Below are positions 8,836 to 48,823 of a stretch of DNA of 64,000 bases, piece after piece (position 1 is the stretch's first letter; the number at the start of each line of letters is the position of its first letter). The translations under genes were made by a program, and so were the position numbers. The notes below the pieces were generated by a model, which did not search any database, was not told the DNA's origin, and was given only the letters and a program-made list of their open reading frames with translations. Location: positions 6,574,501 through 6,638,500 of the forward strand of contig NC_087112.1 of the NCBI RefSeq assembly GCF_963855985.1, in the 5' to 3' direction. This DNA is from Ostrinia nubilalis. Lineage: Eukaryota; Arthropoda; Insecta; Lepidoptera; Crambidae.

Positions 8836-11800
8836 CTGCGCGGAAGAAAAATAAAGTTATAGTTTGATAATAAAAACAATGATATTAAAAATGGCTAATT
8901 TCTGGCTCCCCAGGATGGAAATCTTTAAGCTAGAGCCACTGTTAAGATTCGATTCTATGGACGAAGCTGACTGCTACTCACCAGGCGACCGCTCCAGGGT
9001 GACCCAGCGCTCTCCAGGGAATCCGTAGATACTTGCATCGGTAGTTTTTGTGATGCTAGAGCCACTGCCAAGATCCTATTCTATGGATAAGCCTGACTGA
9101 AACTCACCAGAGCATTTCAGCTCCCTCTTTCTTTCTCTCTCCTAATTTACAATGGATGAAGCTGACAGCAACTCACCAGGTGTCTCTTTTGTCCTGGACG
9201 GCAATCTTTCAGCCACCAGAGCTACTGTTAAGATTCTATTCTATGTATGGAACTCCAAACTTACCAGGTGATCTCTGCTCCCCAGGATGACGTGGTGACG
9301 TGGCGTGCAGCGCGTTGCGGCTGCCTTGCTGGAACGACACCGACATGCCGCTGTCCAGGGATCCCACGGAGCCCCGCCTTTGCAGCCTTTCAGCTGCTAG
9401 AGCCACTGTTGAAATGGAAAATAGTTTCAAAAGTTAGTTTCAACTTGCTGTAAAACAATATACATCTATATCTATAAAAGCAAGTGCTAGGAGTCTCAAA
9501 GTTTGCATGGGGGTTGCTTTTAGAATGTAGGTGCTCATTAAGACGGGATTTGGCAAAATTCAACCCCTAAGGGGGTAAAACGGGATCCACGCGTACGAAG
9601 TCGCGGGCGGCCGCTAGTAATAGTAGTATAATAAGTAGTTAGACAATTAAGTTCGCGTAGTGCTGGCGTCATAGTCCCCTTTGCTAAACAAAATGTACCC
9701 TAATGTGTGAGCCATTTTGCAGCGTATCTAGTTACAATAATAAACCTGTTTCAGGGTGGTTGAGGATTATGGGTAATGCTCGTTTCCACCTTTGACCTGA
9801 TTATCGCCATTTCTCAAGTGAGATGTAGGCCAAGAGCTTCTCATTGTGGGTAAAAAACAATCATTTCCGCCAAGCACACTTACCTGGGTCGTTGATATCC
9901 ACGAGCGAGTTAGAGAGCACGTTCCGTTTGATGATGGTGGTGGGCGGCGGATTGTGTGGGAGCCGTGACGGCGCCGCCGGAGCCGGCCCGGACGGCGGTG
10001 GTGGTACTACCACTCTATGGAAATAAAAGAAGCATGATAAAAATCTTATCTTATCTTATTTAGGGCCACGCATGGGCGCAGTGCACGTCGACCCATTGGG
10101 ATCTTTTGTGCTTCCCTATACCTTTATCCCCCCTCATCCGCAAAGATCCTATCCATATAGTGAATCAAGTGCTTGGGTAAAAAGGACCTATATTCTTCTG
10201 GTGTCGGATAAGCCGACTCCAGGAAATCCATTCTAGTTCTAGCTAGCGCGTCGCATTCGCACAGTATATACTGTGCGAATGCGACGCGCTAGCTAGAACT
10301 AGAACAAATTAGTTTTTGTATAGCATGATAAAAATCTAATTTTTGTATAGACTGGAGCATCTTAAGTAGTTGTTTAGGTTACGCAGCGAAAGTTGAAGTC
10401 ATCAACACAAGCATCGCCGCGCTGACGTCTCGCGTAACTGACAAGTGATTCCTGTCTCGCTTGCACACTTCTAGCAAGAGCGAGGTAGCTAGTCTATTTG
10501 ATATTTGAACCTGAATGAGTGTGTTTGTCTGTTCTGTATTCAAATATTACATTAGTGATGTGATGTCGAGTCGACAGCATTAAGGTTAGAAATTCTAGTT
10601 TCCAATCGTGATATTTATACGTTGATACGAGTTTTACGTTGAGAATGAATTTATAATTTCTTACCCATGAACATGGACGTGGTCCATGCACTGCTGGTGG
10701 TCGATCTCAACGTCCGCCACTCCGCTGTCACGATTTTCCATTACTGTTGGCAAGAGAAAATACTTTGAAGTCGAGAAATCGCATCAGAAATTAAACATTT
10801 TAACAGACGATGAATGATAATATTATTCAGTTTTCTGGTACCGTACCCGTAGTGAAAGTTTGGATCTAGATGGCACTGTCTACTTCAACAATTCACTGGT
10901 CCTTCAAGCCAGATCACTTGTTAAGCAACTCAGTGAACTAGTCCTCCGAGCCGAATCACTAATAAAGTAACTCCGCGAACTGTTATTTTTGAGCCGGATC
11001 ATGTATGAAAGACTGGAGACCTTAGAAGATCACTTTGAAGTAACTTGGTCCTTCGAGCCGGATAATTTTTGGCAGATAGAGCCAGTCACCGTTCCTGTTG
11101 TTGTCCGTGCCTCTTCCCTTCCCTCTGTTGAGTTCGCCCTCAATCCTCATGGCCTCCATCTCGTCCATTTCCGCAATACTCTCACGCAGTTCTTTAAAGA
11201 CCTGGTCCTTCGAGCCGGATCATTTATGAAGCAACTCCGCGAAATGATCGTTTAAGTCTCGAATCACTAAAGAAACTGGTATTTTGACCCGGATCACTTT
11301 GACTCACCATTCCTATTGTTTCCCGTGCCCCTTCCCTTGCCTCTGTTGAGTTCGCCCTCGATCCTCATGGACTCCATTTCGTCCATCTCAGCGATGCTCT
11401 CGCGCAGGTCTTTAGCGACCTGGTCCTTCGAGCCGGATCATTTATGAAGAAACTCAGCGAAATAATCGTTCATGTCGAATCTCTAAAGAAACTGGTATTT
11501 TGACCCGGATCACTTTGACTCACCGTTCCTATTGTTTCCTGTGCCCCTTCCCTTGCCTCTGTTGAGTTCGCCCTCAATCCTCATGGCTTCCATTTCGTCC
11601 ATCTCGGCGATACTCTCGCGCAGGTCTTTAGCGACCTGGTCCTTCGAGCCGGATCATTTATGAAGAAACTAAGCGAAATTATCGTTCATGTCGAATCTCT
11701 AAAGAAACTGGTATTTTGACCCGGATCACTTTGACTCACCGTTCCTATTGTTTCCTGTGCCTCTTCCCTTCCCTCTGTTGAGTTCGCCCTCGATCCTCAT

Positions 11801-14800
11801 GGCTTCCATTTCGTCCATCTCGGCAATACTCTCGCGCAGGTCCTCGGCGAACTTGCAGCGGTCGTGTTCGTTGCGCGCGTTGAAGGTTGCTAGGCGACGG
11901 CCGTCCACGCGGCGGGATAGGCGGATGCCGAATGGATAGTCTGAAATGACGTCATTATTGTATTTGTTAATACTAGGTCAACAAGTAATGGATGTAGACC
12001 GAACATGAAGCAAGTCAAAGTGGCAGTGGACCTGCTATAATTTATGTCGCAAAAGTGATTAAATATGGAGTAGACAGGGCTCGGAAAATGTAGTATAGGA
12101 GGCTGTTCTACTCAATGAACGGACGACTGACCCGCTCAGTCGAACAAGATAATAAAATAAAGGACAGGTGAGCACACTATACAATAAGTTCCAGCTGACA
12201 AAATGCAAATCGTTTATGATTAAGATTCTCTGCAATAGATAAATAAGTTTCAACCGTGATAGGCACATTTACATGTAAGTGAGAAGTATTGAAAGTTGAT
12301 CAATTGATTAAATCGAGTTTAGATTGACCCCGGCCTCGTTTTAGTATAAAAACTAAATAAATCGTTAGTTATGTCATACTCACGCGGCACTGAGAACAAA
12401 TTAACAAGCATTCCGCAGAGAGGGAACGACTGGCGGAACGTGTACGTCACAGAAGACTTCTTCTTGCTGAATATCTTCGTTATCACCAGCAGATCGTTGA
12501 ATAGGAACACCTGAAAATAATTTGCGTACAGTTAATATTTTGAACTGATAGATGACAACACAGTTTATCATTTTTACAAGACACTACAAAGGTTTTTTAA
12601 AATTTTATATACGCCTGTGAACCTCACTTGCCAGGGAACTGCACTGAAAACCAGCGTCATGACTCATGCTGAGTTGGGCACTTTTAATTTGGGCAGTATT
12701 GTTAACTTTTGAACTGTTGTAGTGGATATACACATTGTGATTATTGTGTTCTATACCTTTGTCACGGTCATGTCCAAAATTAAAAAAAGTTCTCGCTTTC
12801 TTTCTTCTGAGTAGGGTCTTGTCACTTTCCAGTGGCGCCAAATGTAGATCACCAACGATAGCCCTAATATTTTTTATGCTTTTACCAATTGGCACCACTA
12901 TCATTGTCACTAAATGGTGAGTTTACGGGACTATTCCCACCTCTCGTTCCCACCAGGCGTAGCTAGGATATACAGCATGACCGCTATTAAAAAGCAACCA
13001 GTGAAGGCCAAGTTTGTCTCGGGGATAAGTTATTTTATATTATAAAGTCATTGGACCCGCAATAAAATTTATCAGAAGAACACAGGAAAAGTTCGAAATT
13101 ATAACAGTGAGTTTGTACTCACCAGTTTACGATCTTGAGAACCCTTATTAAAATCACATACTCGTAAGTAAATGCCTTTATAAGCCCTGACATGACAATA
13201 CCTCTCTCTGGTGCACGCCAGGCCGCTCCTTCTTGTGTATATCCGGTATCTCGTATAGACGGCAGTAGCAGACCAGGCGTCGGTGCGGAAGCGCCAGGTG
13301 CGGTTTCTTGCCCACAATCGTAGCTTGCACTTTCATCACCTTGAAATAAATGGTAAAGTTCATTAGAACTGTGTAAGAAGTATAAATATTTTTAGCTGGA
13401 TTAGTCAATTTATATTATGCTAAACTGTTACCCCCCTTATTAATAAAAGTTACACCATAGTTGAACTCTGGCTTAAATTGTCATTTAATATAGGAATGTC
13501 ATTTTAATCTAGGGTTCATCGTAGCTACATGTAATTTTTTATTAATAAGGGGGTTAGTTTTTAGTTGGATTAGTCAATTTATATTTATGCTACGTCATCT
13601 TTAGTTTGCCACTTTAGGAGCATAATCCTCTCTAATTTACCAAAGGCAAATGAAGGATTCAACTTACACTTCCGAAGCTGGCCAGACAGGGAAGCGTTGC
13701 CTATGCAAGCTAAAGAATGCCACGCATCCCTATCTACAGTTGCTTGCTTCCTCTCTGATCCATTTGCCATTCAGCATATGTTTGACTCTATAGTATATGC
13801 CGGCCAGCATGACTATATCCACAGTTGTCAATGCGAGACTTTGTTAGGAGTCATAAGTCACAGACTTTGTTTGGAGTCATAAGTCACATACTATGTTTGG
13901 AGTCTTAAGTCACATAATAGACTGGATTATCAAATAGCCAAGTTAAAATAGCTCTTATTACATGCGTGACATGGTCGCTTCCCAGCCTGAATTCGCTAGA
14001 CTTGACCCTATCGTATATTCCAGCCAACATGTCTCTGTCAATGTCTCCCGTCGATGCAAGACTTTATATTTGGAGTCAAGTCACATAATTGATTGGTACA
14101 AAAATAGGGCACATAGCTCGTAGAGCTGACGGCCGCTGGGGCAGGAAAGTTCTTGAGTGGCGACCACGAGCTGGAAGACGTAGCGTGGGCAGGCCTCCCA
14201 CTAGGTGGACCGACGATCTGGTGAAGGTCGCGGGAGGCGCCTGGATGCGAGCGGCGCAGGACCGGTCTTTATGGAAAACCTTGAGGGAGGCCTTTGCACA
14301 GAGTGGACGTCTTTCGGCTGAAACGAACGAAATAAAAAAAAATACTAATTTAAAATAATTCTTATTACCTGCGTGACATGGTCGCTTCCCGGCCTAAACT
14401 CGCTCGACTTGACCCTATCGTATATTCCAGCCAGCATGTCTCTGTCAATGTCCCCACAGTCATCGATCCCTCGGAGGTTCCGTACGAAGTCGTCCAGCGA
14501 CATTCGTGCTTCGGGCTTCAAGTTGGGTGTGTGGAGGTCTGTGTTCAGCATTATTATCGCGAAGGCTAGCACGAAGATCTGGAAAGAAATAAGTAGAACA
14601 TAAGTCAAAATGCGTGTTGGTAATTTTAGTTTTAGATTTTGATACTAGGCGGCATAAGAGTGGCTGTTGTATATGATTTGAAGAATCTCGATATTTGACC
14701 TCTCTCACACCGCTAAAGTACCGCAAATAGCTACTCAATTATTGGCTATACCTGAAGATACTCTTTAATGAACACCATACAGAACTGACAAATAAAATAG

Positions 14801-17800
14801 AAACAGCATAACTCAACCAATCTTATGCTAGGAAGCAATATCTTCTGGACAATCCAGGAAGAGTAGAAAAAGGGAAGTTAGACTAATTAATTTTCTTCAT
14901 AAGCTGATTATCGTCGTGAGAAGAAAATTTGTAAATCATAGTTTTTTTCAAAGATTTATTAGTAATTTGTTATTTCACAATTTACTAACAGTCCCGTTAG
15001 CCCCTCGTACTAAGCTAAATATGCATGTATCATGAGTGAGCTCACCACAATAGTCGAGCGGCGGCGGGGACGGAACCCGCGTTTCCCGGATCACGAGTCA
15101 GCCAGTCCGACCCCTTCACCGTTCGGCTATCGTGGCTTCATAGTGACTTACTTCAATGTATCCACTCACCGTATCCTGAGTCCTCAGCCGCTGCACAAAG
15201 TCAGTATTGCAAATACAGTAGCGGCGGGCAAAGGCTTCCACCAGCCGCTCGATCTTCTGAGCTTCACCAGGCAGTCGGAAGTGGGCCTGGTATCTTCGAA
15301 GAGCCACGTCGACCGCCATGCCGGAGAGATCTAGCTCGTTGACGAAGCATCTGTGAGGAAATAATAGTTATTATCATCAGGTCGTTTAGTAAAGGAAGGT
15401 TCATATCTCCATATTTTATAAGCCGCGCGTGATTCGCAGGGAGATCGCAACGCGATACGCAATGACCGTGGTCGAGCCGTACTCACTTGAAGGTTGGATA
15501 CGTTAGATGCTACGTTACGTGCTACATGGCAGGTGAGTACCTTGCTAAGGAGTTTGTAGTGTAAAGATTACTACTACCGTTAACCCCTCCAGTTAAGCTA
15601 AATGTGCTTGTGTGACTCCTAGGCTCACCACAATAGTCCAGCGGTCAGCGAGGATCAAACTAGCGTTCCATAGTCCTCTAGGAACCCCCTAGCGATGAGA
15701 GGTAATAAGCCACGCTACTGTATTTTACGCATTTACCCACAACAGAGAAGCTTTCAGCCTGCATCTTACTTGATGGTACCTAAGTGATGATCAGGCCGAA
15801 GGTCTTCAACTTCACCCAACTACGAAAGAACTGGCTATCTTACCTCCAGCTGCCAAATCACAAAAAATGCTCTAAACATAGTTTTTCTAGCCAGGCTGAC
15901 TTGGCCCTACCACCAACCTATGCTATACGCTCCAGTTTTCACGGAACAGGTTTGTTATATTCAGTTATTATACCAACTCACTCTAGCACAGCCATATTGA
16001 ACGGGTTCTGCAGGTTGCCCAAGTATTCCCCGATCATCTGCTTGCTTAACCCCTTGCGCGTGATGAGAAAGCGGGCGACTCCCCGAGGGGAGTTCTCTAG
16101 GAACCCCCTAGCTATGAGGTAAGCCACGCCACGCTCAGGCTTCTTGTTGAAGAGATTGAGCCCCACGCGGTATTGACGTTTGCGGACTGTTTCGGAGACC
16201 TGTAAGAGATTTGTATACTTTTAACAATTGATTTTATTTATATCCTGACTTAGCTGGTGATTCATAAAGGAAAACAAAAGAGGTGGTTGCTTGAATTAAT
16301 AAAATATGATCGATGTTACATTTGTACGTTCCAGCCGCTGCAACTCCTGTGTAACCAAGGTACTCTGGACCCTCGTATAATAAATAAGTAACAAATACAA
16401 ATTCTTAAGGAAGTATCTTATAGGAAGGTCATAAAAGTGAAACGAAAATCATTCACGCGATACAAGAGAACAAATTAAAAGACGATCAGCATGCGAATGC
16501 ACCCTGTACCAAGAAACCAAAGTTAGTGGTGTGCGGGCGAGTATTTATCATGCGGGCGACAGCATACCGCCGGCGGGAGCGGCTCGTAGTACGAGGGCCC
16601 TAGTATCACAACGACACAAGTCGATTGAGTGTCCCCTGTACCACGCAATTATGCATACCTTGGACCGGCGGGAGCGCCTCGTAGTACGGGGGCCTTAGTA
16701 TCATAACGACACTAGCCGATCGAGTGTCCTCAGTACCACGAAACCATGCATACCTTGGGCTGTTGGTGGTGGGCGGGCGGGTGTCTATCATGCGGGCGAC
16801 AGCATACCGCCGGCGGAGGCGCATCGTAGTACGAGGGCCCTAGTATCACAGCGACACAAGTCGATTGAGTGTCCCCTGTACCACGCAACCATGCATACCT
16901 TGGACCGGCGGGAGCGCCTCGTAGTACGGGGGCTTTAGTATCATAACGACACTAGCCGATCGAGTGTCCCCTGTACCACGAAACCATGCATACCTTGGAC
17001 CGGCGGGAGCGCCTCGTAGTACGGGGGCCTTATGCACGTTTTCACCATCGATCCCTAATTTTTAAGTGACCCCTATGTAAACAAAATTCCTGTTATTTGT
17101 TACCATTAGGGGTCACTTAAAATTAGGGATTGGTGGTGAAAACGGGCATAAGTATCATAACGACACTAGCCGATCGAGTGTCCCCTGTACCACGAAACCA
17201 TGCATACCTTGGGCTGTTGGTGGTGGGCGGGCGGGTGTCTATCATGCGGGCGACAGCATACCGCCGGCGGAGGCGCATCGTAGTACGAGGGCCCTAGTAT
17301 CACAGCGACACAAGTCGATTGAGTGTCCCCTGTACCACGCAACCATGCATACCTTGGACCGGCGGGAGCGCCTCGTAGTACGGGGGCTTTAGTATCATAA
17401 CGACGCTAGCCGATCGAGTGTCCCCTGTACCAAGCGACATGCGTACCTTGGGCTGTTGGTGGTGGGCGGGCGGGTGTCTATCATGCGGGCGACAGCATAC
17501 CGCTGGCGGTGGCGCCTCGTAGTACGGGGGCGCGTCCTGTCGCTTCCACACGGGGAATCCGGGGGCGGGGACTGGCGCGGCCACGCCTTCGTAGGCGGAG
17601 CCTGATGCCGTGCGCTGGTGGCCTTGGTAGTGCTGCTCTTGGATGTGGATGTGAGGCTCCTGGGAGGTAGAGGATAAGGTTAACCCTGTATAAGGCTCTA
17701 TGACCCTTATTCATTTATCATAAGGTCGAAAATGAATGAAAATGGCAATGCCAGATTTTGTATGGAAGGTGGCGTCTTTTTTTTTCGCGCGGCCATCGAC

Positions 17801-26800: not shown

Positions 26801-29800
26801 AGCCAATCCCTTGGGAATAAGCCTATGAGAACCAACACCAATATTACATTTTATCAAAATGTCTATAGAAATCAGAGAGAATAGAATAGAGCAATAATTG
26901 CTCACATCTATGATCAGCCCGACATTATAATAACAAGTAAGGGAAGATCAGTGTTTTTCTTTTTTTAAATCTGAAATTATAATAAAAAATCTTTTCCAAA
27001 TTAAAATATAGGAAATTGAATCCTATACCAACGTAATAAAGCTCACCTCATATCCATGTCGTGCCGTTCTCTCAGCGACATGGACCTCATCGGCCTGGTG
27101 AGAGCCAACATCTTCTCCGCACCCGCTGGACTCTTCTGGAGCAGTGTATTCCCGTAGATATCTGTACCTGGAAGAAGATAGTACAAGGTTCGGTTACTTG
27201 GAGGATGCAACAAAACTTCTAGGTTGATAATAATAAGGTCTTGGCTGAAAGAAGTTATGGATATCAGCAAGAGATAAAGTACAAGTGGCCATGGCAGAAA
27301 TCTATAATAGCTGCATTTCCGACAGCTGCAATATCTGGAGGATACCTCCCTCCGCTATTTACTGCACCCATCTCAACGAGAAGAAGATGCAAAACTCATT
27401 GGACCGAGTTCCTCCAGTCTCATTTTTCTGTAGCTATGCTATACACCAGAAGCTGTACCATTGATGATCATGATTAGGCCCATCTTGTAGACGCTTCGTT
27501 GTGGAATCTGTTTCCCTCGCCCCACTTTAATGGTGCTGGACTCCATAGCTTATCAGACCCTAAATTCCTTTTGTACTTATGCTAGTTTACCAGAAGCCTT
27601 ACCATTGACTAGCTGGCCATGATCAGGCCCGTCCTGCATTCTCCTCGCGGTGGAGTCAGCAGCTTTTGCCATCGCCGTGATGGCGCTAAACTTCTTCAGC
27701 AGCTGTCGCCGTCTAAACGCCCTTTGGATGGTGACCGCTGCCCTTCGAGCTCTAAGACCTCCGTACCGCCTCTCTAGGATCTCGACCTGCTTGTCCAGGA
27801 GATCTTGGGACATCTCATAACGGCTGTGGAAGCGATAAAGAGGGAATTAATACCTGGCATTATTTATAGGGAGTTTGGAATGAAGGTGTGGGGAGGGTAG
27901 TCTACTCTGCAGAAGGTTGAGGAGAACAATATTTGTGAATGAGGGTCTACTTTGCAAGAGGATGATGTGGAATCTTTTCTCTCTGTCAGTCATATCAGCA
28001 TCAGGTTAAGCGAATGAGACGGATTGAATGGCATTTTTATGAAGATCCGGTGGGTATTTTAACTTACTACTCACTTTCACGGGCATTAATGGATTCAAAT
28101 CTTATCATAGTCAGATTAGTGGCAGATAACTACTGTAGTGAAATTTTTTAAAGGTATACAACGTGTTATTGCTTAAATTAATAAATTGATAAAAAAAGCT
28201 TATTAAAAATTAATGTGTTAAGTCGATTCACTAATCGATTACATGTACACGTTTCTAAACAAACAAAAAGGTATTGCGTCAGTTCAATTACACGTTGTAC
28301 ATACTCATTTTGGATAGAGGTGTAGGTAATGCCGATATTGGACAAAAACATATTATGCTATCAAGTTATTAACAAATTATAACAAGTATTTAACTGTTAA
28401 TTAATCCTATTACAATTAATTGGTTCACATTTTCTGAATCATTAAATTGCATATTAGTTAAAATGTTTGTTTCATTAAATACACTCATTACATTAATTGA
28501 TTATGTTAGGTATGTAAAGTCATCATTCATTATATTTTATTGATGAATGTCTCGAACTAATATTTAGCATGATTTACGTGAAAGTTTACTAACTACTAGA
28601 AATTATTTGACAATACTAACTAATAGTCAGATTTAACAGAATTTGAGATGATCTATATTGTAGAAAGCGAATCAATTTAAACTAACTGATACATTATAAA
28701 AACTTTGTAATTTAAATTAGTTGTGTTTTAGTACATGCAGCATGGAGTTCAAAATATTAATGAATTAGAAAATCAAATCGTTCATCAGCTCAAGATTATT
28801 TGTTAAGCTTCAACCACACCAACGCGTGCAGATCGCCATTGCCGGCGCGATCATAGGCTAATGACAGGTCGCGCGGACTGTCATGGGTCGCGCGACCTGT
28901 CATGGGTCGCGCGACCTGGCATTGGCCTATGATCGCGCCAGCGATGGCGATCTGCACGCATTGGTGTGGTTGAAGCTTTTTAAGTATAACATGCCTTATT
29001 TTACTGTCAGTACCTATGAGTCAAACTAATAGAGGAAGTATTAGGTAGGGCAACGTCAGTAGGGATCGATTCTATTGTATGTTATAAACAAATTCTTTTC
29101 AATCGTTAGCTTGCCATACAGGATTTCGGTAGAAAGTAATATCCCATCAAAAACAATACTTGTCAAAAAAACCAAGTCTCGCAACTCAGTTGTTCTACGG
29201 TAAAAAGTTGTGAGATCCATGTAATACCAAGTCCAGGCCAGGAAATCTTTAACGTTTTACAGAAATTATTGACTTGGCCATCGCACTAAATAATTTAATT
29301 TACACGTGTTTTCATGCGATGGCCAAGTCAATATATTTATGTAAAACGTTAAAGATTTCCTGGCCTGGACTTGGTATTACATGGATCTCACAACTTTTTA
29401 CCGTAGAACAACTGAGTTGCGAGACTTGGTTTTTTTGACAAGTATTGTTTTTGATGGGATCTCATTTCTTTTTGTATTTTGTAGACAGCAGTTATGTATC
29501 TAGAAAACTGGACCGAAATTGAAAAATTTTACTCGACTTGGCGGTTGCACTACCGTGCCCCCAAATATTTTAGTTTTTCCTTGATTCATACACCAAACAC
29601 TACTTGTTGAGAGGGGCTATGTGTGGTCAATTAAAGGCTGACTCCAAATTACAATGAACATTTATTTTGAAAACGGACGGTCTTATATAGGAAAATATTT
29701 ACAATATTAGACAAGGACAAAACATATACCTATTTCACAGATAACATCTACAAACATTTTAGGGTGAGACAATAAAACGATTACCTACAAACATTATAAT

Positions 29801-35800: not shown

Positions 35801-37676
35801 GTGCCGCTTCTTCTTTGGAATAGTGAAAGTATTCGTTTATAGCAAACTTTATGGCATTCACAGTCATAGCAACTCACTTATATGCGTATGAAATGCCATT
35901 GACTTATAACGATTGATTGGATGTTGTCTAAAACATCATCATCATATTTATGTAATCAAATTAACCCACAACTATGTGTAGCATAGTGGTTAAAATTTTA
36001 TCTACGAGTGTAACGGTTTTCCCTATGACTTTATTTTAATTACAGTTGGCGCCACTGTAGAATAAGATCCTGTCACTTGCTAGTGCAGGGGTTCCCTAAC
36101 TTATTTGAGAAGCGCCCCCTTTCGACCTTACAAAAAAATCCGTGCAAGATTATTTATTGGTCGTATGGAGCAGTCTGGAATGCATTCTCTCAGCGGTCGC
36201 AGATTTTTTTATACTTAAGTACACAGATCGCCCGCGCCCCCCATTTAAATGTCTTTGCGCCCCCCACTTTGGGAACCAATGTCGTAGACCAAATCCTGAA
36301 TGTCGACTTTGGTGGCGATGGAGTGCTATCTGCCCAAGGGCTATCGTTTTAGCGCTCACCAGTTGGCGCCACTGTAGTGTCACTTCTTAGTGGCTAAAGA
36401 CAGAAGCGGTAGGAGGACTACCGCATTTGCACTTACTTGGATGGCGGACCTAGAGAAAGGACCTGTCATTCCAGTGGTGCCAACAGTTAAGTATAAACGC
36501 TAGCCATCATTAGGCGCACAATCTATGCGATTCGGCCAATATGTATAACGCCATCGCTGGTGGTGAAAGACCACACTCACATTTTTGTGTGCATCCTGAA
36601 GCCCTAACCCTGACTGACCCTGATAGTGACAAACTTTGTAACATATGAGAAAACAAGTCACCGGTAGGCGACTTTAAGGCACACCACTCTGACCTAGTGA
36701 TATGCCATCCCTAAATCATGAACGACCTTATCGGTTGAAGAGCACCACACTGACCTGTTGGTATGAACGGCCATCCCGAATCCCTCCGGCGGCGCGGCGA
36801 TGTACAGCGGCGGCGGCGGCTCCTGTGCGCCGGCGCACAGACCCGCGCCCGTCGACGCGTTCGAGGCGGACGAACATGACGAGTTCGAGTGGTTTAGAGC
36901 TGGAATTGAGGAAATGAAATAGGTAATATCTTTACTATGTGACTTAATAATGGATATGAATAGATATTGGGTAAGGCCTCCTTACGGGTTTTAACGAGCC
37001 TTTTGCAGAGCTACGAAATCGGAACAGATTCGTGAGCTCAATTTTTGCCTTTCGGGTCGCGAGAGATTCATATGTACGAGTATAAAAATAAGGCACATAC
37101 TTGAACGATAAAGAATCACAATAAAATTTTCCAAACGACGATAACTGCATCGGTAGTCTGGTCCTCTGTTGACTGCATCCAGGTACATCCTGTGACTGTC
37201 GACAGATCGTCGGTCCACCTACGTCTTCCAGCCCGTGGTCGCCACTCGAAAACTTTTCTGCCAACTGCCATCAGCTTTAAGAGGCATGTGCCTTGCCTAC
37301 TACCAATTACTACTTATGTAGGTTAAATTGAAGGTTTGTGGATTACCCGATAAAGACCGGTGAACCGCTATGACGTATCTGTTCCTCTCCATATACCCTG
37401 GCTAGTATAGATGTAATCATGGGACTCTTGTGTAAAGCATGCACGACGAACTACAGCTACTTAAGTAGGTTAAGATTTAAGGTAGTTGTTTGTGGCTTAC
37501 CCGGTAAAGGCCGGTGGACCGCGGTGACGTATCTATTGCCCTCCATGTACCCGCGGTCCGGCTCGGCGGTGTGGCCATGGTGGCTGTGGATGGAGTGCTG
37601 GTGCGTGTAGAACCCGTCGGGAGGGTGGAGCGCCACGCCGCCGCCGGACTCCTCCTCATCCACTTTCTGGGAGAAG
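8732..37676 (-). CDS. siz (IQSEC): IQSEC/BRAG-family Arf-GEF (schizo/loner type), 3' 19 coding exons
   Basis: Joining 37501-37676, 36755-36899, 27603-27823, 27047-27167, 26036-26165, 22942-23038, 20808-20958, 19985-20132, 17447-17659, 15982-16199, 15170-15350, 14369-14578, 13202-13339, 12384-12510, 11740-11940, 10665-10743, 9884-10014, 9265-9393 and 8732-8835 gives one open frame of 972 residues plus stop. Every junction is GT-AG and every phase agrees. In this partial numbering the IQ motif is near residues 136-155, Sec7 near 473-670, PH near 671-805, and the C-terminus reads STEV. Family knowledge: IQSEC proteins bind calmodulin through the IQ motif and catalyse GDP/GTP exchange on Arf6/Arf1 at the cell cortex; Drosophila schizo/loner acts in myoblast fusion and axon guidance. 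The first visible exon begins inside a codon with an acceptor before it, so the N-terminal exon(s) are missing. Length is in the usual range for the family. Family assignment is very secure; the exact orthologue name is inference. Confidence 0.95.
8895..9240 (-). repeat. Partial, internally deleted copies of exon r with both splice sites
   Basis: The copied intron end (AGTGGCTCTAG type) appears near 8937 and 9056, with a variant near 9225; copied donors (CTG|GTGAGT type) appear near 8975, 9110 and 9173. The copy at about 8973-9050 has both an AG acceptor and a GTGAGT donor around an open 74-base segment. Exon-like words such as CATCCTGGGGAGC and CTGAAAGATTGCC are kept while the middle of the exon is lost. 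Confidence 0.75.
9265..9393 (-). CDS. siz (IQSEC): IQSEC exon r: conserved [10 protein letters not shown] tail segment
   Basis: The acceptor GGCTCTAGCAG precedes 9393 and the donor CACCTG|GTAAGT follows 9265. It encodes [20 protein letters not shown], matching the RR-S-GSLDS block after the PH domain of vertebrate IQSECs; the RRGS could be a kinase site (inference). It is phase 1 in and out. Several internally deleted copies lie at 8895-9240. Confidence 0.92.
9464..9618 (+). mobile_element. Short Helitron-like non-autonomous element
   Basis: It begins near TCTATATCTATAAAAGC and ends CGCGGGCGGCCGCTAG, a GC hairpin directly before CTAG, typical of Helitron ends. Relatives: 38318-38420, 51817-52035 and 62954-63166. 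Confidence 0.55.
9884..10014 (-). CDS. siz (IQSEC): IQSEC exon q: Pro-rich tail
   Basis: The acceptor TATTTCCATAG precedes 10014 and the donor CCCAG|GTAAGT follows 9884. It encodes [20 protein letters not shown] and [16 protein letters not shown]. It is phase 2 in and phase 1 out. The proline-rich character matches the tail of vertebrate IQSEC proteins and could bind SH3 domains (inference). Confidence 0.82.
10231..10304. repeat. Perfect 74-bp palindrome
   Basis: The two 37-base arms are exactly complementary around ATACAGTAT-like centre AGTATATACT; the left arm begins TTCTAGTTCTAGCTAGCGCG. There is no loop. It lies in the intron between exons p and q, next to dispersed-repeat sequence (10040-10230). 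Confidence 0.95.
10665..10743 (-). CDS. siz (IQSEC): IQSEC exon p: C-terminal tail
   Basis: The acceptor CTTGCCAACAG precedes 10743 and the donor CATGG|GTAAGA follows 10665. It encodes [20 protein letters not shown] and HVHVHG. Phases (1 in, 2 out) fit both neighbours. The small size means the call rests on splice signals and phase. Confidence 0.75.
11084..11733 (-). repeat. Three 216-218 bp units: copies of exon o 3' half with donor
   Basis: The donor complement lies at 11734 (true exon), 11518, 11302 and 11084: steps of 216, 216 and 218 bp. Each copy keeps about 115 exon bases encoding [15 protein letters not shown] and [11 protein letters not shown] without stops. Two copies have a perfect GGTGAGT after CG or AT; the outermost reads GGTGACT. 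Each copied exon part joins abruptly to intron text (GACCTGGTCCTTCGAGCCGG) instead of the upstream exon half. Shorter relatives of that intron text continue to about 10898. Confidence 0.93.
11740..11940 (-). CDS. siz (IQSEC): IQSEC exon o: PH domain end
   Basis: The acceptor GTCATTTCAG precedes 11940 and the donor AACG|GTGAGT follows 11740. It encodes [20 protein letters not shown] and the terminal PH helix [20 protein letters not shown]. It is phase 1 in and out. About 115 bases of its 3' part plus donor are copied three times downstream. Confidence 0.96.
12384..12510 (-). CDS. siz (IQSEC): IQSEC exon n: PH domain middle
   Basis: The acceptor TTATTTTCAG precedes 12510 and the donor TGCCGC|GTGAGT follows 12384. 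It encodes [20 protein letters not shown] and [13 protein letters not shown], closely like vertebrate IQSEC PH sequence. It is phase 0 in and phase 1 out. Confidence 0.96.
12927..13083 (+). repeat. Dispersed repeat family A
   Basis: Shares GGACTATTCCCACCTCTCGT, CAACCAGTGAAGGCCAAGTT and CATTGGACCCGCAA with 25062-25212, 38866-38965, 39105-39260, 50257-50385 and 6545-6655 (some reversed), plus a stub at 16327-16375. Class unknown; no clear terminal structure. Confidence 0.75.
13202..13339 (-). CDS. siz (IQSEC): IQSEC exon m: PH domain start
   Basis: The acceptor TTTATTTCAAG precedes 13339 and the donor AGAGAG|GTATTG follows 13202. It encodes [20 protein letters not shown] and [13 protein letters not shown], the Sec7-PH joint and first PH strands of the IQSEC-type PH domain, which binds phosphoinositides. 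It is phase 0 at both ends. Confidence 0.96.
13755..14055 (-). repeat. Two partial copies of exon l 3' end
   Basis: The stretch 13957-14048 repeats the last roughly 90 bases of the exon with about 90 percent identity by eye; its donor position reads ATG|TAATAA where the true exon has CAG|GTAATAA, so the donor is damaged. A second, more decayed copy is near 13787-13825. Both are followed by the same spacer (GACTTTGTTTGGAGTCATAAGTC type). The RTE-like tail at 14098-14343 separates the copies from the true exon. Confidence 0.85.
14098..14343 (+). mobile_element. 3' tail of an RTE-like non-LTR retrotransposon
   Basis: The plus strand encodes [20 protein letters not shown] and [11 protein letters not shown], the C-terminal tail of an endonuclease/reverse transcriptase family abundant in Lepidoptera. 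Only the tail is present. It separates exon l from its partial copies, so it probably arrived after the duplication. The clade name is from memory. Confidence 0.75.
14369..14578 (-). CDS. siz (IQSEC): IQSEC exon l: Sec7 domain part 3
   Basis: The acceptor TTTCTTTCCAG precedes 14578 and the donor CGCAG|GTAATA follows 14369. It encodes [16 protein letters not shown], the most conserved Sec7 motif forming the Arf-binding groove, then [20 protein letters not shown] and the final helices. It is phase 0 at both ends. Two partial copies lie downstream (13755-14055). Confidence 0.96.
14943..15137 (-). mobile_element. tRNA-derived SINE with 7-bp TSD
   Basis: The minus strand starts with a tRNA-like head carrying an A box (TAGCCGAACGG) and B box (GGGTTCCGTCC) and ends in an A-rich tail. 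TCATAGT flanks both sides (14936-14942 and 15138-15144). It sits just downstream of the donor of exon k. A fragment of the same family is at 15575-15667. Confidence 0.85.
15170..15350 (-). CDS. siz (IQSEC): IQSEC exon k: Sec7 domain part 2
   Basis: The acceptor TTCCTCACAG precedes 15350 and the donor GATACG|GTGAGT follows 15170. It encodes [20 protein letters not shown] and the hallmark segment [20 protein letters not shown]. It is phase 2 in and phase 0 out. A SINE lies immediately downstream of its donor. Confidence 0.96.
15575..15667 (-). mobile_element. Fragment of the same tRNA-derived SINE
   Basis: Shares AGCTAAAT, GCTCACCACAATAGTC and AGCGG words in the same order as 14995-15070; the tRNA head is missing. 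Confidence 0.7.
15668..15715 (-). repeat. Partial copy of an internal part of exon j
   Basis: CTCTAGGAACCCCCTAGC and the following GATGAGAGGTAATAAGCCACGC match 16091-16136 of exon j apart from small insertions. It directly abuts a SINE fragment (15575-15667). Confidence 0.75.
15982..16199 (-). CDS. siz (IQSEC): IQSEC exon j: Sec7 domain part 1
   Basis: The acceptor TCTCTTACAG precedes 16199 and the donor CTAGA|GTGAGT follows 15982. It encodes [20 protein letters not shown] and the first Sec7 helices, including [13 protein letters not shown], the segment holding the acidic residue that destabilises Mg-GDP on Arf in this domain. It is phase 0 in and phase 2 out. A 45-bp partial copy lies at 15668-15715. 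Confidence 0.95.
16525..17446 (-). repeat. Array of about seven partial copies of exon i 3' end with donors
   Basis: Plus-strand GCATACCTTGG (donor AAG|GTATGC on the gene strand) recurs near 16655, 16750, 16894, 16990, 17210 and 17350, with a seventh decayed unit near 16525. Two unit types alternate: long units keeping the exon part that includes TATCATGCGGGCGACAGC, and short units with that part deleted. Units are joined by shared intron sequence (CACTAGCCGATCGAGTGTCC type). A 116-bp MITE sits inside one unit at 17033-17148. Confidence 0.9.
17033..17148. mobile_element. 116-bp MITE inside the exon i array
   Basis: Terminal inverted repeats begin TGCACGTTTTCACCATC and end GGTGGTGAAAACGGGCA, and the inner part is also inverted (AAGTGACCCCTA / TAGGGGTCACTT). 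TA flanks both sides. A fragment of the same family is at 60257-60295. Confidence 0.8.
17447..17659 (-). CDS. siz (IQSEC): IQSEC exon i: Pro/His-rich linker before Sec7
   Basis: The acceptor CTACCTCCCAG precedes 17659 and the donor CCCAAG|GTACGC follows 17447. It encodes 71 residues starting [16 protein letters not shown], through [20 protein letters not shown], to PPAHHQQPK. It is phase 0 at both ends. The next exon begins [11 protein letters not shown], the start of the Sec7 region. High GC content. Confidence 0.85.
17736..18520. mobile_element. Nested foldback elements with an inserted Helitron-like element
   Basis: The outer arms 17772-17826 and 18443-18498 are complementary (both contain CGCGCGGCCATCGACCAA or its complement). 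Inside lies a second inverted repeat, 18064-18439, with arms containing AACTTGCGCGCAAAAAGC. Between them, at 17827-18060, sits an unrelated segment starting after CCCAACTAATATTATAAATG and ending GCGAAGCCGCGGGCGGAAAGCTAG, a hairpin followed by CTAG as expected of a Helitron 3' end. Confidence 0.65.
19170..19360 (-). mobile_element. 3' end fragment of the jockey/CR1-like family
   Basis: Complement of the 3' end seen at 55840-56039: CGCTTCGAGACCAAC, AAGTGCTGAGAAGAAGCGCC and a TCAAAAGTCAAAAT tail. Confidence 0.65.
19441..19916. mobile_element. TIR element, about 480 bp
   Basis: TACAGTCACGGAATGAAAAG with GTTCGTCA at the left, and TGACGAACCTTTTCATTCCG with CGACTGTA at the right. No transposase frame. 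Confidence 0.75.
19985..20132 (-). CDS. siz (IQSEC): IQSEC exon h: Ser/His-rich linker
   Basis: The acceptor CTTGTCTCCAG precedes 20132 and the donor CTCCG|GTTAGT follows 19985. It encodes [20 protein letters not shown], a Ser run, and [15 protein letters not shown]. It enters phase 2 and leaves phase 0, matching both neighbours. The His/Gln-rich character is common in IQSEC linkers. Confidence 0.8.
20133..20400 (-). repeat. Degenerate copies of exon h 5' half and acceptor side
   Basis: The block 20277-20400 repeats exon h: the 21-base run from GCGGCGGAG through GGACTTT (interrupted in neither copy) is shared, as is the following intron text ATTTAGACCTTAATGCTTA. A shorter unit at 20190-20275 repeats the intron part (GCTATTTTTAACT, GATACAATGACTATTTTTAA). 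The outer copies keep an AG near the acceptor position but are more decayed than the copies beside other exons. Confidence 0.75.
20808..20958 (-). CDS. siz (IQSEC): IQSEC exon g: linker with conserved [11 protein letters not shown]
   Basis: The proximal acceptor CTCTTTTAG precedes 20958 and the donor CTCAA|GTAAGT follows 20808. It encodes [12 protein letters not shown], a QQQQ run, and [14 protein letters not shown], a block I recall as typical of insect and vertebrate IQSEC linkers. Two further acceptors with copied exon starts, 120 and 234 bp upstream, are in frame with it, so the N-terminal boundary may vary between transcripts. Confidence 0.85.
20959..21250 (-). repeat. Two extra in-frame copies of exon g acceptor and 5' half
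   Basis: Copies of the intron end (CTGTATCTATTTTAG type) followed by exon-like GGTCC(A/G)AT sequence start at 21078 and 21192. The spacings to 20958 are 120 and 234 bp, both multiples of three. The frame is open through all three units down to the donor, and even the intron pieces between them translate (NSTLSVSIL). Using the outer acceptors would add 40 or 78 residues containing repeated [10 protein letters not shown] blocks. Confidence 0.85.
21434..22386. mobile_element. piggyBac-like element with transposase remnant
   Basis: The inverted ends CCCTCAGTTTGCATGG / CCATGCAAATTGAGGG are flanked by TTAA on both sides (21430-21433, 22387-22390), the piggyBac target. On the minus strand near 21960-22070 an acidic run ([20 protein letters not shown]) resembles the N-terminal region of piggyBac transposases. 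The catalytic domain is missing, so this is a deletion derivative. Confidence 0.8.
22942..23038 (-). CDS. siz (IQSEC): IQSEC exon f: Ser-rich linker
   Basis: The acceptor TTGTATTACAG precedes 23038 and the donor TACAG|GTAAAA follows 22942. It encodes [20 protein letters not shown] and then HNHQLLNNT. It enters phase 0, so it can follow either exon 26036-26165 or the alternative first exon 24215-24331. No duplicated copy is seen beside it. Confidence 0.8.
24215..24331 (-). CDS. siz (IQSEC): Candidate alternative first exon (short isoform)
   Basis: An ATG at 24331 with A at -3 and G at +4 opens 39 codons starting [19 protein letters not shown] and ending VVKYE, followed by GAA|GTATGT, a good donor. 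In-frame stops lie just upstream, so this is a real start if used. It ends phase 0, exactly what exon 22942-23038 needs; splicing to it gives 747 residues lacking the IQ motif but keeping Sec7 and PH. The peptide is basic (Lys/Arg-rich), which would suit membrane or nuclear contacts (inference). I do not recognise it from another species, so it is a prediction resting on signals and phase. Confidence 0.55.
24365..24401 (-). promoter_or_regulatory. Candidate TATA-less core promoter (Inr + DPE)
   Basis: On the minus strand an arthropod initiator TCAGT places +1 at 24397. Positions +28 to +33 read CGACGT, one base off the DPE consensus (RGWYVT). A second TCAGT lies 8 bases upstream. The site is 66 bases upstream of the ATG at 24331, in a small CpG-rich island. 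Confidence 0.45.
25062..25212 (-). repeat. Dispersed repeat family A, reverse copy
   Basis: Reverse complement of the family at 39105-39260, containing GGTCCAATGACAGTTAAA and ACAGGAGTTGCAGCGGTGG. Confidence 0.75.
25385..26035 (-). repeat. 87-bp tandem array of exon e 3' end plus splice donor
   Basis: On the plus strand the donor complement ACTTACC/ACTCACC recurs at 25404, 25502, 25589, 25682, 25769, 25856 and 25943 before the real one at 26029. The step is 87 bp (93 where a 6-bp extra occurs, 98 at the outermost unit). Each unit carries exon-like sequence encoding ADMPHLH on the minus strand and an intact GGTAAGT (GGTGAGT in the outermost). The outermost unit keeps an 11-bp segment (CCCCACGGTGT) shared with the true exon; the six inner units lack it. 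The structure therefore looks like an expanded exon-edge duplication. Confidence 0.92.
26036..26165 (-). CDS. siz (IQSEC): IQSEC exon e: helical linker
   Basis: The acceptor CTCTATTACAG precedes 26165 and the donor GCGGG|GTAAGT follows 26036. It encodes [20 protein letters not shown] and continues to [10 protein letters not shown], probably helical. It enters phase 2 and leaves phase 0. The last roughly 45 bases and the donor are repeated seven more times downstream in the intron (25385-26035). Confidence 0.85.
26216..26449. mobile_element. hAT-like MITE, 8-bp TSD
   Basis: The ends CAGCGGTTCCCAAACTTATT and CCACTTTGGGAAAGACTG are hAT-type inverted repeats. GGTTAGAA flanks both sides (26208-26215, 26450-26457). 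234 bp, non-coding. Confidence 0.9.
27047..27167 (-). CDS. siz (IQSEC): IQSEC exon d: linker after IQ motif
   Basis: The acceptor CTTCTTCCAG precedes 27167 and the donor TATGAG|GTGAGC follows 27047. Phase 1 in and phase 2 out match both neighbours. It encodes [15 protein letters not shown], then [16 protein letters not shown], a basic Ser-containing stretch that could be phosphorylated (inference). The motif IYGN recurs in exon 20808-20958. No intronic copy of this exon is visible. Confidence 0.85.
27444..27530 (-). repeat. Partial copy of exon c donor end
   Basis: ACCAGAAGCTGTACCATTGA and ATGATTAGGCCCATC resemble the true exon c end (ACCAGAAGCCTTACCATTGA, ATGATCAGGCCCGTC) about 150 bp away. 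The donor position on the gene strand has become GGTACAG. Confidence 0.7.
27603..27823 (-). CDS. siz (IQSEC): IQSEC exon c: coiled segment and IQ motif
   Basis: The acceptor GCTTCCACAG precedes 27823 and the donor AATG|GTAAGG follows 27603. It encodes [20 protein letters not shown] followed by the IQ motif [18 protein letters not shown]. In the family this IQ motif recruits calmodulin and couples Arf activation to calcium. The preceding segment is the strongly conserved block before the IQ motif in vertebrate IQSEC1-3. The intron upstream is about 8.9 kb and carries the Gypsy element. A partial copy of its 3' end lies at 27444-27530. Confidence 0.93.
27824..28804. other. Intron sequence, nothing recognised
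   Basis: The intron upstream of exon c. AT-rich without repeats I can name. Confidence 0.5.
28805..28978. mobile_element. GC-rich MITE with internal tandem repeat
   Basis: Terminal inverted repeats AAGCTTCAACCACACCAA / TTGGTGTGGTTGAAGCTT continue into CGTGCAGATCGCC. The centre repeats GTCATGGGTCGCGCGACCT. Decayed relatives lie at 22648-22740 and 51180-51245. Confidence 0.85.
29141..29460. mobile_element. 320-bp foldback (long-TIR) element
   Basis: The arms 29141-29285 and 29315-29460 are almost perfectly complementary (for example AGGCCAGGAAATCTTTAACG and its complement) with a loop of about 29 bp. The tips read ATCCCATCAAAAACA / TGTTTTTGATGGGAT. No coding capacity. Family not recognised. 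Confidence 0.9.
29605..30205 (-). repeat. Gypsy 3' LTR
   Basis: 601 bp with TGTTGAGAGG on one end and GTCGCCACA on the other (TG...CA); no difference from the copy at 33533-34133 was seen on reading. Confidence 0.97.
30242..33181 (-). CDS. pol: Gypsy Pol: protease, RT, RNase H, integrase
   Basis: 979 residues without a stop. The protease active site [13 protein letters not shown] is near residue 48. Reverse transcriptase follows with DYRRLNATT and the catalytic FIDDV. RNase H ([27 protein letters not shown]) comes next. Integrase has an HHCC finger (HNLSHPG ... CIPCQKAK) and a DDE core ([28 protein letters not shown]). All key residues I can check are present, so the enzyme set looks functional. 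Probably expressed by -1 frameshifting from gag; I see no canonical slippery heptamer in the overlap. Confidence 0.96.
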   Translation of the reverse strand: MCRQLYIHEEKCAGKLALALAETGTSARVQSHRLFVTDKKTKLMFLIDTGANISVIPKRSSQQMKPTTFNLYAANNTIIPTYGEKTLELDLGLRRPFRWKFIIAAVSKPIIGADFLEYHKILVDIAGRSLRDEVTNLSVKTKISNYPTPTIRSIDSSQKYHDIFAEFPEITRISTMKETPKHCVEHYIETTGPPLYCKARPIPPHRYAAVKKEFEVMVEQGLCRPSKSPWASALHVVPKKNGDIRVCGDYRRLNATTKPDRYPVPRLKDFTYQLNGKKIFSTIDLNRAYQQLPVFSAHIEKTAIITPFGLFEFPRMCPGLKNAGQTFQRFINEVLQGLDYVFPFIDDVLISSETEEAHILHLRTVLSKLNEYGITINPSKCTLGQEEVKFLGYMVSQHGIKPPDEKVSAISAFPRPNTIEELRRFLGTVNFYRDAIPQAASIQAPLNAYLHNSKKNDKTKIVWTDEATQAFEACKVSLQTAALLAHPAYDAPIALMCDASNTCAGAVLQQYQHDKWQPLGYFSKKFSDTQQRYSTYDRELLSIYMAVKHFRKMFEGRQLTIFTDHKPITYALLKKTSDTETPRRTRQLLFISEFTSDIRHISGKENIVADSLSRIEDITCPSTIDYDQLALAQQKDSNLTTLTKQDNLHFKKIAMSNSASIYCETSTANVRPYLPQDFRRIAYNAIHNLSHPGIRTTRKMLTERYFWPSMNADISNWTKACIPCQKAKINRHTSSNYTSFPPTERFQHLHVDIVGPLPPSQHGHRYLLTMIDRTTRWPEAVPLHEITAETVARHVYEGWISRFGCPSTLTSDQGRQFESQLFTSLTKRLGIEKTRTTAYHPQSNGIVERWHRTLKTALTASLNSRNTKWLDALPTVLLGLRAATRQDTGVSAAQLTYGTIIRLPGDFFNNTPMTSLQNMDYTYVERLRHTINEFKAAEPVRHNTKTFVHKDLQSCESVFLRIDSGRRSLQARREHDPEE
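33133..33498 (-). CDS. gag: Gypsy Gag remnant: linker and nucleocapsid
   Basis: 121 residues. A coiled linker ([17 protein letters not shown]) and a basic RS-rich region precede one zinc knuckle, [14 protein letters not shown]. Gag proteins of this type normally have about 200 further residues (capsid) before this point, and these are absent, although a Met opens the frame just inside the LTR. It overlaps pol, which lies in the -1 frame. The element may need capsid supplied in trans (inference). Confidence 0.85.
   Translation of the reverse strand: MNTNPEGRLPHNHRQHLHDAQQQEVFAIDRPHSSSSRYNALEDKIDKLTEAITQLVTHNNQRGRSPYRNWRQNRQASRSNSRNRSQTPSNSPYCYYHRKFGHNARKCADNCTFMKKNVPEN
33533..34133 (-). repeat. 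Gypsy 5' LTR
   Basis: 601 bp, reads the same as 29605-30205. The element's presumed primer-binding site (TGGTGACCCC on the minus strand) follows directly inside it. Confidence 0.97.
34647..34760. mobile_element. 114-bp MITE
   Basis: AGGCCACACTTCCAGCTACC / GGTAGCTGGAGTTGTGTCCT ends, then CATTTCCG / CGGAAATG. Confidence 0.8.
36086..36281. mobile_element. hAT-like MITE
   Basis: The ends CAGGGGTTCCCTAACTTATT and CCACTTTGGGAACCAATG match the family at 26216-26449. The target duplication is no longer clear. Confidence 0.75.
36679..36720 (-). repeat. Partial copy of exon b donor end
   Basis: GCACACCACTCTGACCT and TGCCATCCCTAAATC resemble the true exon b end (GCACCACACTGACCTG ... GGCCATCCCGAATC) about 70 bp away, including the donor complement CTGACCT. 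Confidence 0.6.
36755..36899 (-). CDS. siz (IQSEC): IQSEC exon b: Ser/Pro-rich linker
   Basis: The acceptor TCAATTCCAG precedes 36899 and the donor CAACAG|GTCAGT follows 36755. Of the three frames only the one with a two-base phase joins both neighbours. It encodes 47 residues including [12 protein letters not shown] and [16 protein letters not shown]. The end base pair AG plus C of the next exon makes the Ser of [13 protein letters not shown], a conserved IQSEC segment. The GC-rich exon stands out from its AT-rich surroundings. Confidence 0.8.
37195..37265 (-). mobile_element. Short RTE-like tail fragment
   Basis: CAGATCGTCGGTCCACCTA and GTCGCCACTCGAAAACTTT match the tail family (compare 952-1028); a middle part is deleted. 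Confidence 0.6.
37316..37400 (-). repeat. Partial copy of exon a donor end
   Basis: The stretch repeats 37462-37560: TACCCGATAAAGACCGGTG against TACCCGGTAAAGGCCGGTG, then ATGACGTATCTGTTCC against GTGACGTATCTATTGC. The donor on the gene strand reads GGGTAATC. The offset is about 165 bp. Confidence 0.82.
37501..37676 (-). CDS. siz (IQSEC): IQSEC exon a: N-terminal linker, first visible exon
   Basis: The acceptor TTGTCCACAG lies just above 37676 and the donor GG|GTAAGC follows 37501. The exon starts with one base of a split codon and ends phase 1. It reads [20 protein letters not shown] at its start and then a His-rich stretch ([11 protein letters not shown]). No domain is recognised. It joins in phase to exon 36755-36899. 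A degenerate copy of its 3' end with a donor lies at 37316-37400. Confidence 0.8.
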
Positions 37677-40340: not shown

Positions 40341-40750
40341 TTTCAACCGACATCAAAAAAGGAGAAGGTTCTCAATTCGACCCGTATGTTTTTTTTTTCT
40401 ATGTTTGTTACGCGATAACTCCGCCAATTATGAACCGATTTGAACAAATCTTTTTTTGGCGTATAGGTAATACCTCAAGGGTGGTCCCATTTAAATTTAA
40501 TAATAGAAAATACAACCCTCAAGGGTGGAAAATTGGGGATGAACTTTTTTATACGCAATATCTCCGCCGATTATAAATCAATTTGAACGATTATTTTTTT
40601 GTTGAATAGGTATTATCAAAAGGATGGTTTCATGCGAATTTGAAGAAAATATTTCACCCCCAAGGGTGTAAAATTGGGGATGAACTTTTTTATATGCAAT
40701 ATTTTTAATTTTTAGTTTTTTTTTGTGTTCACGCATTTGAAGTCGGTTTT
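40341..40750. mobile_element. Repeat with internal tandem units
   Basis: The left end TTTCAACCGACATCAAAAAA and right end TTTGAAGTCGGTTTT are inverted, a lepidopteran repeat type. Inside, a unit of about 125-130 bp (AAATTGGGGATGAACTTTTT, TACGCAATATCTCCGCCGAT) occurs two to three times. Confidence 0.7.
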
Positions 40751-42606: not shown

Positions 42607-42935
42607 TGTACGCGCCAGCATTAAAACCTCATACATTTCGAACTCATGTCACACTATTCTATCACTCATTCTGACAGTCCTTTTTCCTATCCTCTCCCTC
42701 CCACCTTCAGTCTCGCTCTCGCATCGCAACGCGCCGCTTCGCCTACCTATCTGGGCGTTAATACTAAATAAGTATCCAAAATAAACCAATTCAAATAAAC
42801 CCAAATCGCGCGCTAAACTCATCTCAATAAAAATTCAAGTGTTTGTGAAAGTGAAAGAAGAACCAAGCTTGGACCGTCCTGTGGAGTCTGCTCAATCGAA
42901 GGTATCCCATCCCGTTCCTATCCCAATCTCCTACA
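42607..42935 (+). repeat. Bel-Pao 5' LTR
   Basis: 329 bp, TGTACGCGCCAGC...TCTCCTACA. The segment following it (42936 on) should hold the primer-binding site. Confidence 0.96.
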
Positions 42936-43328
42936 ACTCCTTTCTGGTCCTACCGAGCCGCATGGTTCATTTCCTATCCTTTACACTTACATAAAATCAC
43001 AACTACACATTTTCACGCATCCGTCATTTTGACAACTCTCTAGAAAATTCTAGAAAATTCGCTCGTTTGACACATCCTTTCTGGAAAGTTCGATTCGTTT
43101 GATATTTGACACATTCTAGAAATTACTATTCGCTCAAACGTCAACTCGTTGTTTGTAAACACGTATATTTTTTAAATTCAATCTTTAAAATTTTATTTCA
43201 ATTCAATTTCAAATTCGCTTACATACGCTACGCATTTTATTTTCCTACTGGATTATAAATAAATACGCACAACTCAACTCATTTTTAACGCTAACTCTCG
43301 TGCGTGTGTTTGCTCACCTACCAATACA

Positions 43329-48623: not shown

Positions 48624-48823
48624 CTCAAATAATGTTCTTAACTTTATTTTTTCTTAACTTTAATTTAACTCAACTTTAATTTGAATTTAACTCAACTTTA
48701 ACGCTTATTTAACTCAAATTTAACTCGTTTAGTTCTCTCTAACGCATGCTTTTTTGCGTTTTTAACTTTATTTTTTTTACAAACGCTATTCAATCTAGAG
48801 GAAGACCTCTAGGCCGGGGGAGT

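Follow-up and report, generated by a model that had tools for sequence, protein, structure and literature searches.

Recurrent tandem duplications across exon edges of an IQSEC gene in the moth Ostrinia nubilalis

Introduction

Among described systems, tandem exon duplication and the mutually exclusive exons associated with it come closest to the locus characterized here: as set out in excerpts of two accounts (PMC9013439, PMC6071210), they likewise place same-strand local copies, intron flank included, in neighbouring introns. The share of exonic bases with a copy is about 2% in human, 0.08% in D. melanogaster and 0.06% in C. elegans, with outlier genes, according to the excerpted part of PMC9013439. 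Internal tandem repeats at exon-intron boundaries within human segmental duplications (PMC2812944, in excerpt) are likewise boundary-spanning and able to move splicing, and intron gain by tandem genomic duplication (PMC2891723, in excerpt) likewise gives rise to a further splice site of the same type. Among the results listed by our searches of the open-licence PMC literature, we found no title or abstract opening on exon-edge-biased duplication across one gene. Here we describe such a gene in 64,000 nucleotides of the Ostrinia nubilalis genome (NC_087112.1, positions 6,574,501 to 6,638,500; the window).

Results

Gene identity and exon model

The gene, on the minus strand, encodes a lepidopteran IQSEC/schizo Arf-GEF: a draft protein assembled from minus-strand frames matched lepidopteran IQSEC/schizo proteins, and the Pfam domains Sec7 (E 1.1e-65) and IQ_SEC7_PH (E 5.4e-63) place it in that group. 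At 93% identity, the Chilo and Loxostege proteins are the nearest to the window protein among the matches listed. Alignment of seven lepidopteran IQSEC proteins against the window with tblastn, together with GT/AG sites, yielded 20 coding exons, e2 to e21, running from 37676 down to 8732 (minus strand) with an unbroken frame and GT/AG at every junction. A preliminary description of the same DNA had counted 19 exons with a lower end at 8895; it had missed e4 and placed the end of the gene short of the last exon. Judging by order and copy number, its exons a to s would correspond to e2, e3 and e5 to e21. Exon 1 was not found within the 64-kb window, and intron 1 extends upstream from 37677.

Inventory of exon copies

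The exons served one by one as queries against both strands of the window, and a self-comparison of the gene body added e5 and the spacings between copies. Apart from an inverted repeat inside e3, the search of the whole window gave 25 non-self exon matches at E ≤ 0.005, every one of them on the strand of its exon and within an adjacent intron; these 25 placements derive from nine exons (e2, e7, e9, e10, e11, e12, e14, e17 and e20). A significant partial copy is thus present in 10 of the 20 exons. Nine of these 10 have an edge copy in the adjacent intron, on the donor side at e2, e5, e7, e11, e14, e17 and e20 and on the acceptor side at e9 and e10. The copies cross the exon edge, normally together with its splice site, as seen in alignments (for e11, in the search output). 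The features are as follows, with the exon letters of the preliminary description in brackets; unless stated otherwise, exons rest on tblastn and the exon search.

37501..37676, minus strand: exon e2 (a), from tblastn to P0001/P0002 and GT/AG sites
37310..37398, minus strand: donor-side copy of e2; 80% over 96 bp at a spacing of 154 bp, GT retained
35061-34972, minus strand: exon e4, common to Chilo
27603..27823, minus strand: exon e5 (c)
27426..27508, minus strand: donor-side copy of e5; 71%, GT retained, site weakened
26036..26165, minus strand: exon e7 (e)
25370..25985, minus strand: seven donor-side copies of e7 at a spacing of 87-93 bp; GTAAGT in six, GTGAGT in the last
20808..20958, minus strand: exon e9 (g)
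21004..21232, minus strand: two acceptor-side copies of e9 in units of 114-120 bp; their acceptors lie in frame, 120 and 234 nt upstream of the authentic site
19985..20132, minus strand: exon e10 (h)
20290-20397 (region 20221..20397), minus strand: acceptor-side copy of e10; 83%
20221-20303, minus strand: second e10 copy, mainly upstream intron; 76%, the partner extending two bases into e10
17447..17659, minus strand: exon e11 (i)
16522..17446, minus strand: donor-side higher-order array of e11 with units of 95 and 240 bp; nine copy donors
17029-17152: inverted-repeat insert within the e11 array
15716-15672, minus strand: exon-internal copy of e12 (j); 45 nt, 78%
14369..14578, minus strand: exon e14 (l), part of Sec7
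13932..14048, minus strand: donor-side copy of e14; 90% over 117 bp
13782..13819, minus strand: third, decayed e14 copy; 38 bp, 82%, without donor
11740..11940, minus strand: exon e17 (o)
11086..11637, minus strand: three donor-side copies of e17 in 216-bp units; GT kept in all three
9265..9405, minus strand: exon e20 (r)
8905..9254, minus strand: intron 20 pieces of both e20 ends, shrunken or decayed; CTG|GTGAGT donors at 9176, 9107 and 8981
8835-8732, minus strand: last exon e21, from tblastn and GT/AG sites

Of the at least 11 of 19 exons earlier counted as having partial copies, nine (a, c, e, g, h, i, l, o and r) are confirmed with edge copies, b is unsupported and j has an exon-internal copy. 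For exon b (e3), neither the gene-body self-comparison (E ≤ 0.05) nor the exon search gave a copy, short donor look-alikes being all that can be seen by eye, and the copy of j (e12) lacks the splice sites of that exon. The sides previously assigned agree with the alignments for both acceptor-side exons (g and h) and, on the donor side, for a, c, e, i, l, o and r, with the qualification that intron 20 also holds acceptor-end pieces of e20.

The arrays of e7, e9, e11 and e17 consist of head-to-tail copies spanning the exon-intron boundary. No whole-exon copy with both splice sites and an intact frame was found: eight families include one edge only, and the e20 pieces, from both ends, are shrunken. 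Support from the exon search is weakest among the nine edge families for e20 (E 0.002-0.003), part of whose copies stand at 67%. The exon parts of the long copies differ by about 5-28% from their exon, which an assembly error would hardly produce, but some e7 and e11 units are about 97% or more alike among themselves, and the copy numbers of those arrays are those of the assembly. Between e14 and its copy, the stretch 14133-14331 matches 840-1041, in another part of the window, at 90%.

Edge-spanning and intron-only duplications

To compare edges with introns, duplication families were counted from matches of at least 60 bp at spacings of at most 1,500 bp, with Gypsy LTR pairs and a SINE-like pair excluded. 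This count omits matches below 60 bp, namely 13592/13422 and 22207/21494 (35 bp each), a 46-bp match in a 20-bp minisatellite at 20539-20643, short array pieces in introns 14, 17 and 20 and the e12 copy. Nine families span an exon edge. Intron-only families number zero in the gene body outside the arrays of those nine, one in the 26.3 kb of intron 1 and zero in the 8.7 kb of 3' flank. The preliminary description had named equally frequent intron-only tandem duplications, per base, as what would refute its claim; in this one gene they are outnumbered by the edge-spanning ones, arrays and transposon pairs set aside. The single intronic case shows that such pairs are detectable:

40404..40702, minus strand: intron-1 tandem duplication, the only one of at least 60 bp found there; 158-bp match, 77%

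As a placement null, a segment of each family's length was slid along the gene body, the Gypsy element excepted; among positions that were not wholly exonic, 12-23% spanned an edge (mean 0.146). Against this null, the probability of at least 9 edge-spanning families is 4e-6 out of 12 and 3e-5 out of 14, both values being post hoc, since the window had been picked by a reader as striking. Three matches of 62-87 bp that are intron-only or nearly so (10896-10962 against e17 flanks, 9254-9193/8968-8910 and the second e10 pair) are included above in the edge families next to them; treating them as separate makes the share 9 of 13, with the intron-1 pair among the 13, and 9 of 14 once the SINE-like pair is added as well. 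The edge excess over introns in IQSEC is real, for one gene chosen as striking. The gene body also contains five short-unit arrays (13-42 bp units), all of them intronic, so the edge preference is limited to long units. The excess of donor-side families (7 of 9) is not significant (p=0.18).

A repeat-prone locus, from which a striking gene happened to be picked out, would offer another explanation. The window was indeed chosen by eye, and gene-level duplication counts are long-tailed in other animals, according to the excerpted part of PMC9013439. However, intron 1 holds only one such duplication in its 26.3 kb, transposons included, and the 3' flank none in 8.7 kb, so repeat-proneness is not a feature of the entire locus; we therefore regard chance as an unlikely explanation. 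The free length of intron 1 is less than 26.3 kb (about 17 kb by estimate), because the intron contains LTR, LINE-like and mariner-like sequence.

Transposons and other repeats in the window

Several repeats were set apart from these counts. The pair 15577-15667 / 14994-15083 (74%), which flanks e13, was considered as a duplication around that exon and dropped for its SINE-like look; both members resemble tRNA-derived SINEs, and a search of the window against Rfam gave nothing above threshold. Two 94-bp-spaced pairs inside the Gypsy LTRs were likewise dropped from the duplication counts.

Intron 4 contains a Gypsy-type LTR retrotransposon (29605-34133) whose identical 601-bp LTRs and unbroken pol frame point to a recent insertion. 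Adjoining it are two long palindromes, side by side (28805-28978, 86%; 29131-29469, 93%). A second LTR element in intron 1 (42607-49152), whose direct repeats (329 bp) are identical and which has a frame of 1786 aa, is by eye presumably BEL/Pao-like. At 52671-55414, reverse transcriptase frames are followed by a transposase frame, which we assume to be LINE-like and mariner-like, respectively. Intron 10 carries an inverted repeat pair (18059-18196 and 18306-18443; 138 bp, 94% identical).

Coding potential of the e9 and e17 copies

Some copies, above all those of e17 and e9, could be real alternative coding sequence. Upstream of e9, the two copy acceptors score 8.4 and 8.2 against 9.8 for the real one, and both are strong; with the real one they make three in-frame acceptors, in a frame that is open across the array (168 codons), and use of the copy acceptors would add 40 or 78 residues. 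Among the e17 exon and its three copies, 17 of 103 sites are variable and 15 of these fall at codon position 3 (p=4e-6 versus one third), a pattern unlike that expected of freely drifting decoys. More conservative counts give 10 of 12 (p=0.0005) and, at the most conservative, 6 of 7 (p=0.007). The e17 copies are stop-free, and differences between copies are mainly silent (silent to changing, 6 to 1, 10.5 to 2.5 and 11.5 to 3.5). Over 12 of the 14 exon-copy pairs (two redundant rows omitted), differences by codon position number 21, 14 and 63, with e17 contributing 26 of the 63.

Against a coding role, however, an acceptor scan found nothing scoring at least 4 ahead of the first e17 copy and, ahead of the third, a weak site at 11258 (4.5), and a stop lies four codons past the e17 donor. 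Furthermore, the e10 copy and the far e11 copy look neutral, and the tested copy peptides of e9, e11, e14 and e17 are absent from the best 120 of 971 homologues; one of those 120 shares an eight-residue piece of the e7 copy peptide, which is also exon sequence. Alternative coding use consequently strikes us as improbable. Given the lack of a good acceptor before the first e17 copy and the weak one before the third, exchange with the functional exon is probably a better reading of the e17 array than separate translation.

Detection of old and recent duplications

The preliminary description had also raised detection bias as a possible contributor, exon copies being easier to spot than intron copies. 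If the exon half of a duplication is constrained, old exon-edge duplications remain visible while old intron-only ones fade. Such a bias must operate in families that are old (e5 at 71%, part of e20 at 67%). The intron-derived halves differ by 2-19% in e2, e7, e9, e11, e14 and e17, by 21% in e5, by 24% in e10 and by 32% in e20. Spike-ins of 90, 120 and 200 bp placed wholly in introns (substitutions only; the unit was the query, in a search space equal to the gene body's) were all recovered (180 of 180) at 5%, at 12% and at 20% divergence; at 30%, 175 of 180 were. Wholly intronic equivalents of the six families diverged by at most 20% would accordingly have been seen, as the intron-1 duplication was at 77%. 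Detection bias fails for the recent events and may contribute for e5, e10 and e20; as an account of the whole pattern it is very unlikely.

Splice sites of the copies

Copy donors score about like the authentic ones in e7 (10.8-11.4 versus 10.6), e11 (6.7-7.7 versus 5.2), e20 (10.3 versus 9.9) and two of the three e17 copies, with authentic donors scored leave-one-out and copies with all 19 sites, a scheme in which small gaps mean nothing. In e7 and e17 a stop lies within a few codons beyond the donor, and splicing at a donor further downstream would therefore truncate the protein. Selection for decoy splice sites was among the causes proposed earlier; it would keep the copies as decoys or spares by which IQSEC splicing or expression is tuned. 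This view could draw on these scores and on the two in-frame e9 acceptors that have been kept, but we find it unsupported and highly improbable, as donor strength is no lower in exons with donor copies than in the remaining exons (mean score 8.4 versus 7.1, p=0.42) and the sites of several older copies (e2, e5 and e14, compared by eye) are weakened, the third e14 copy having lost its donor.

Repeats in homologous proteins

Recurrence in other species was assessed by a k-mer count scan for repeats in the 134 homologue proteins listed (the best 120 of 971 and of 251 matches); BLASTP self-comparison was uninformative for this purpose, a known repeat in the control not being listed. Long-stretch repeats were found in three of the 134 (P0005, P0033 and P0122), and three others share a single six-residue word. 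In the predicted protein P0033 of Phthorimaea operculella, the last 40 residues encoded by e14 are present in five copies (four extra), each ending at the e14 donor position; these copies start further upstream than the e14 copy described here, and P0033 is one of 51 lepidopteran proteins as grouped here. The shared exon edge (that of the 90% e14 copy) and the different start suggest, on the evidence of a predicted protein, an independent event. In the predicted protein P0005 of Papilio machaon, the e15 segment is exactly doubled in tandem. P0122 of Heliothis was set aside, since it aligns as a chimera. A search of viral contigs for relatives gave 11 stretches that matched a pattern, none of which was confirmed.

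Discussion

Taken together, the account that we consider probable, and the best overall, is one of recurrent, independent tandem duplications at exon edges, tolerated and in places amplified. Short local duplications would have arisen independently at nine exon edges, each with one breakpoint in the exon and the other in the intron. That there were many independent events, as had been proposed, agrees with the differences among families in unit length, breakpoint and side, and the spread in divergence of the intron-derived halves (2-32%) indicates that the events differ in age. As the anatomy shows, each event leaves one intact exon with both splice sites in place and adds a part-exon copy with a splice site to the intron, and it is because an intact exon remains that the duplications would be tolerated. 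Tolerance presumably also depends on the splice site nearest the exon still defining the right exon, which fits the seven donor-side versus two acceptor-side families, a non-significant difference. Some copies, as the arrays show, were amplified to seven or more, probably by slippage or unequal exchange, and most would then drift as decoys; those of e17 probably exchange with the functional exon, which would keep their differences silent.

The edge excess may tentatively be ascribed to a mutational propensity of exon edges and not to decoy selection, and it is compatible with slippage or template switching favoured there. At the e17 breakpoint, the CAAGTT after the last unit matches, by eye, the CAAGTT at the unit start; this six-base match fits a microhomology-guided duplication, in one case. 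In structure the duplications resemble ordinary local tandem ones, and the surprise lies in their concentration at the exon edges of one gene.

A broader reading, speculative though possible, is that some lepidopteran genes have germline hot spots of tandem duplication (80-240 bp) at their exon edges, through which introns would steadily gain half-exons whose splice sites are live, and with them a source of decoys, of alternative ends and of new exons; on this reading the e14 edge would have been hit independently in two moth families. If exon edges do attract duplication, neutral models of intron evolution, of alternative splice sites and of new exons would have to include a mutation term that depends on the site, and in genomes of this kind predicted proteins may carry spurious repeats, possibly including P0033.

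How, then, does this locus differ from the systems described before? In the window, intronic copies at ≥80% identity exist for 531 of 3,022 exonic bases (17.6%), and since programs and criteria differ, this compares with the excerpted figures of PMC9013439 in order of magnitude only. Tandem exon duplication and mutually exclusive exons, as excerpted from PMC9013439 and PMC6071210, involve whole exons, whereas the copies here are mostly half-exons with one splice site and so imply no exon choice. The boundary repeats of human segmental duplications have units of 30 bp on average and lie in duplicated genes (excerpt of PMC2812944), whereas units here measure 87-240 bp and occur at nine edges of one gene. 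In intron gain, finally, an exonic duplication makes a new intron (excerpt of PMC2891723), whereas here existing introns receive the copies and the exons stay whole.
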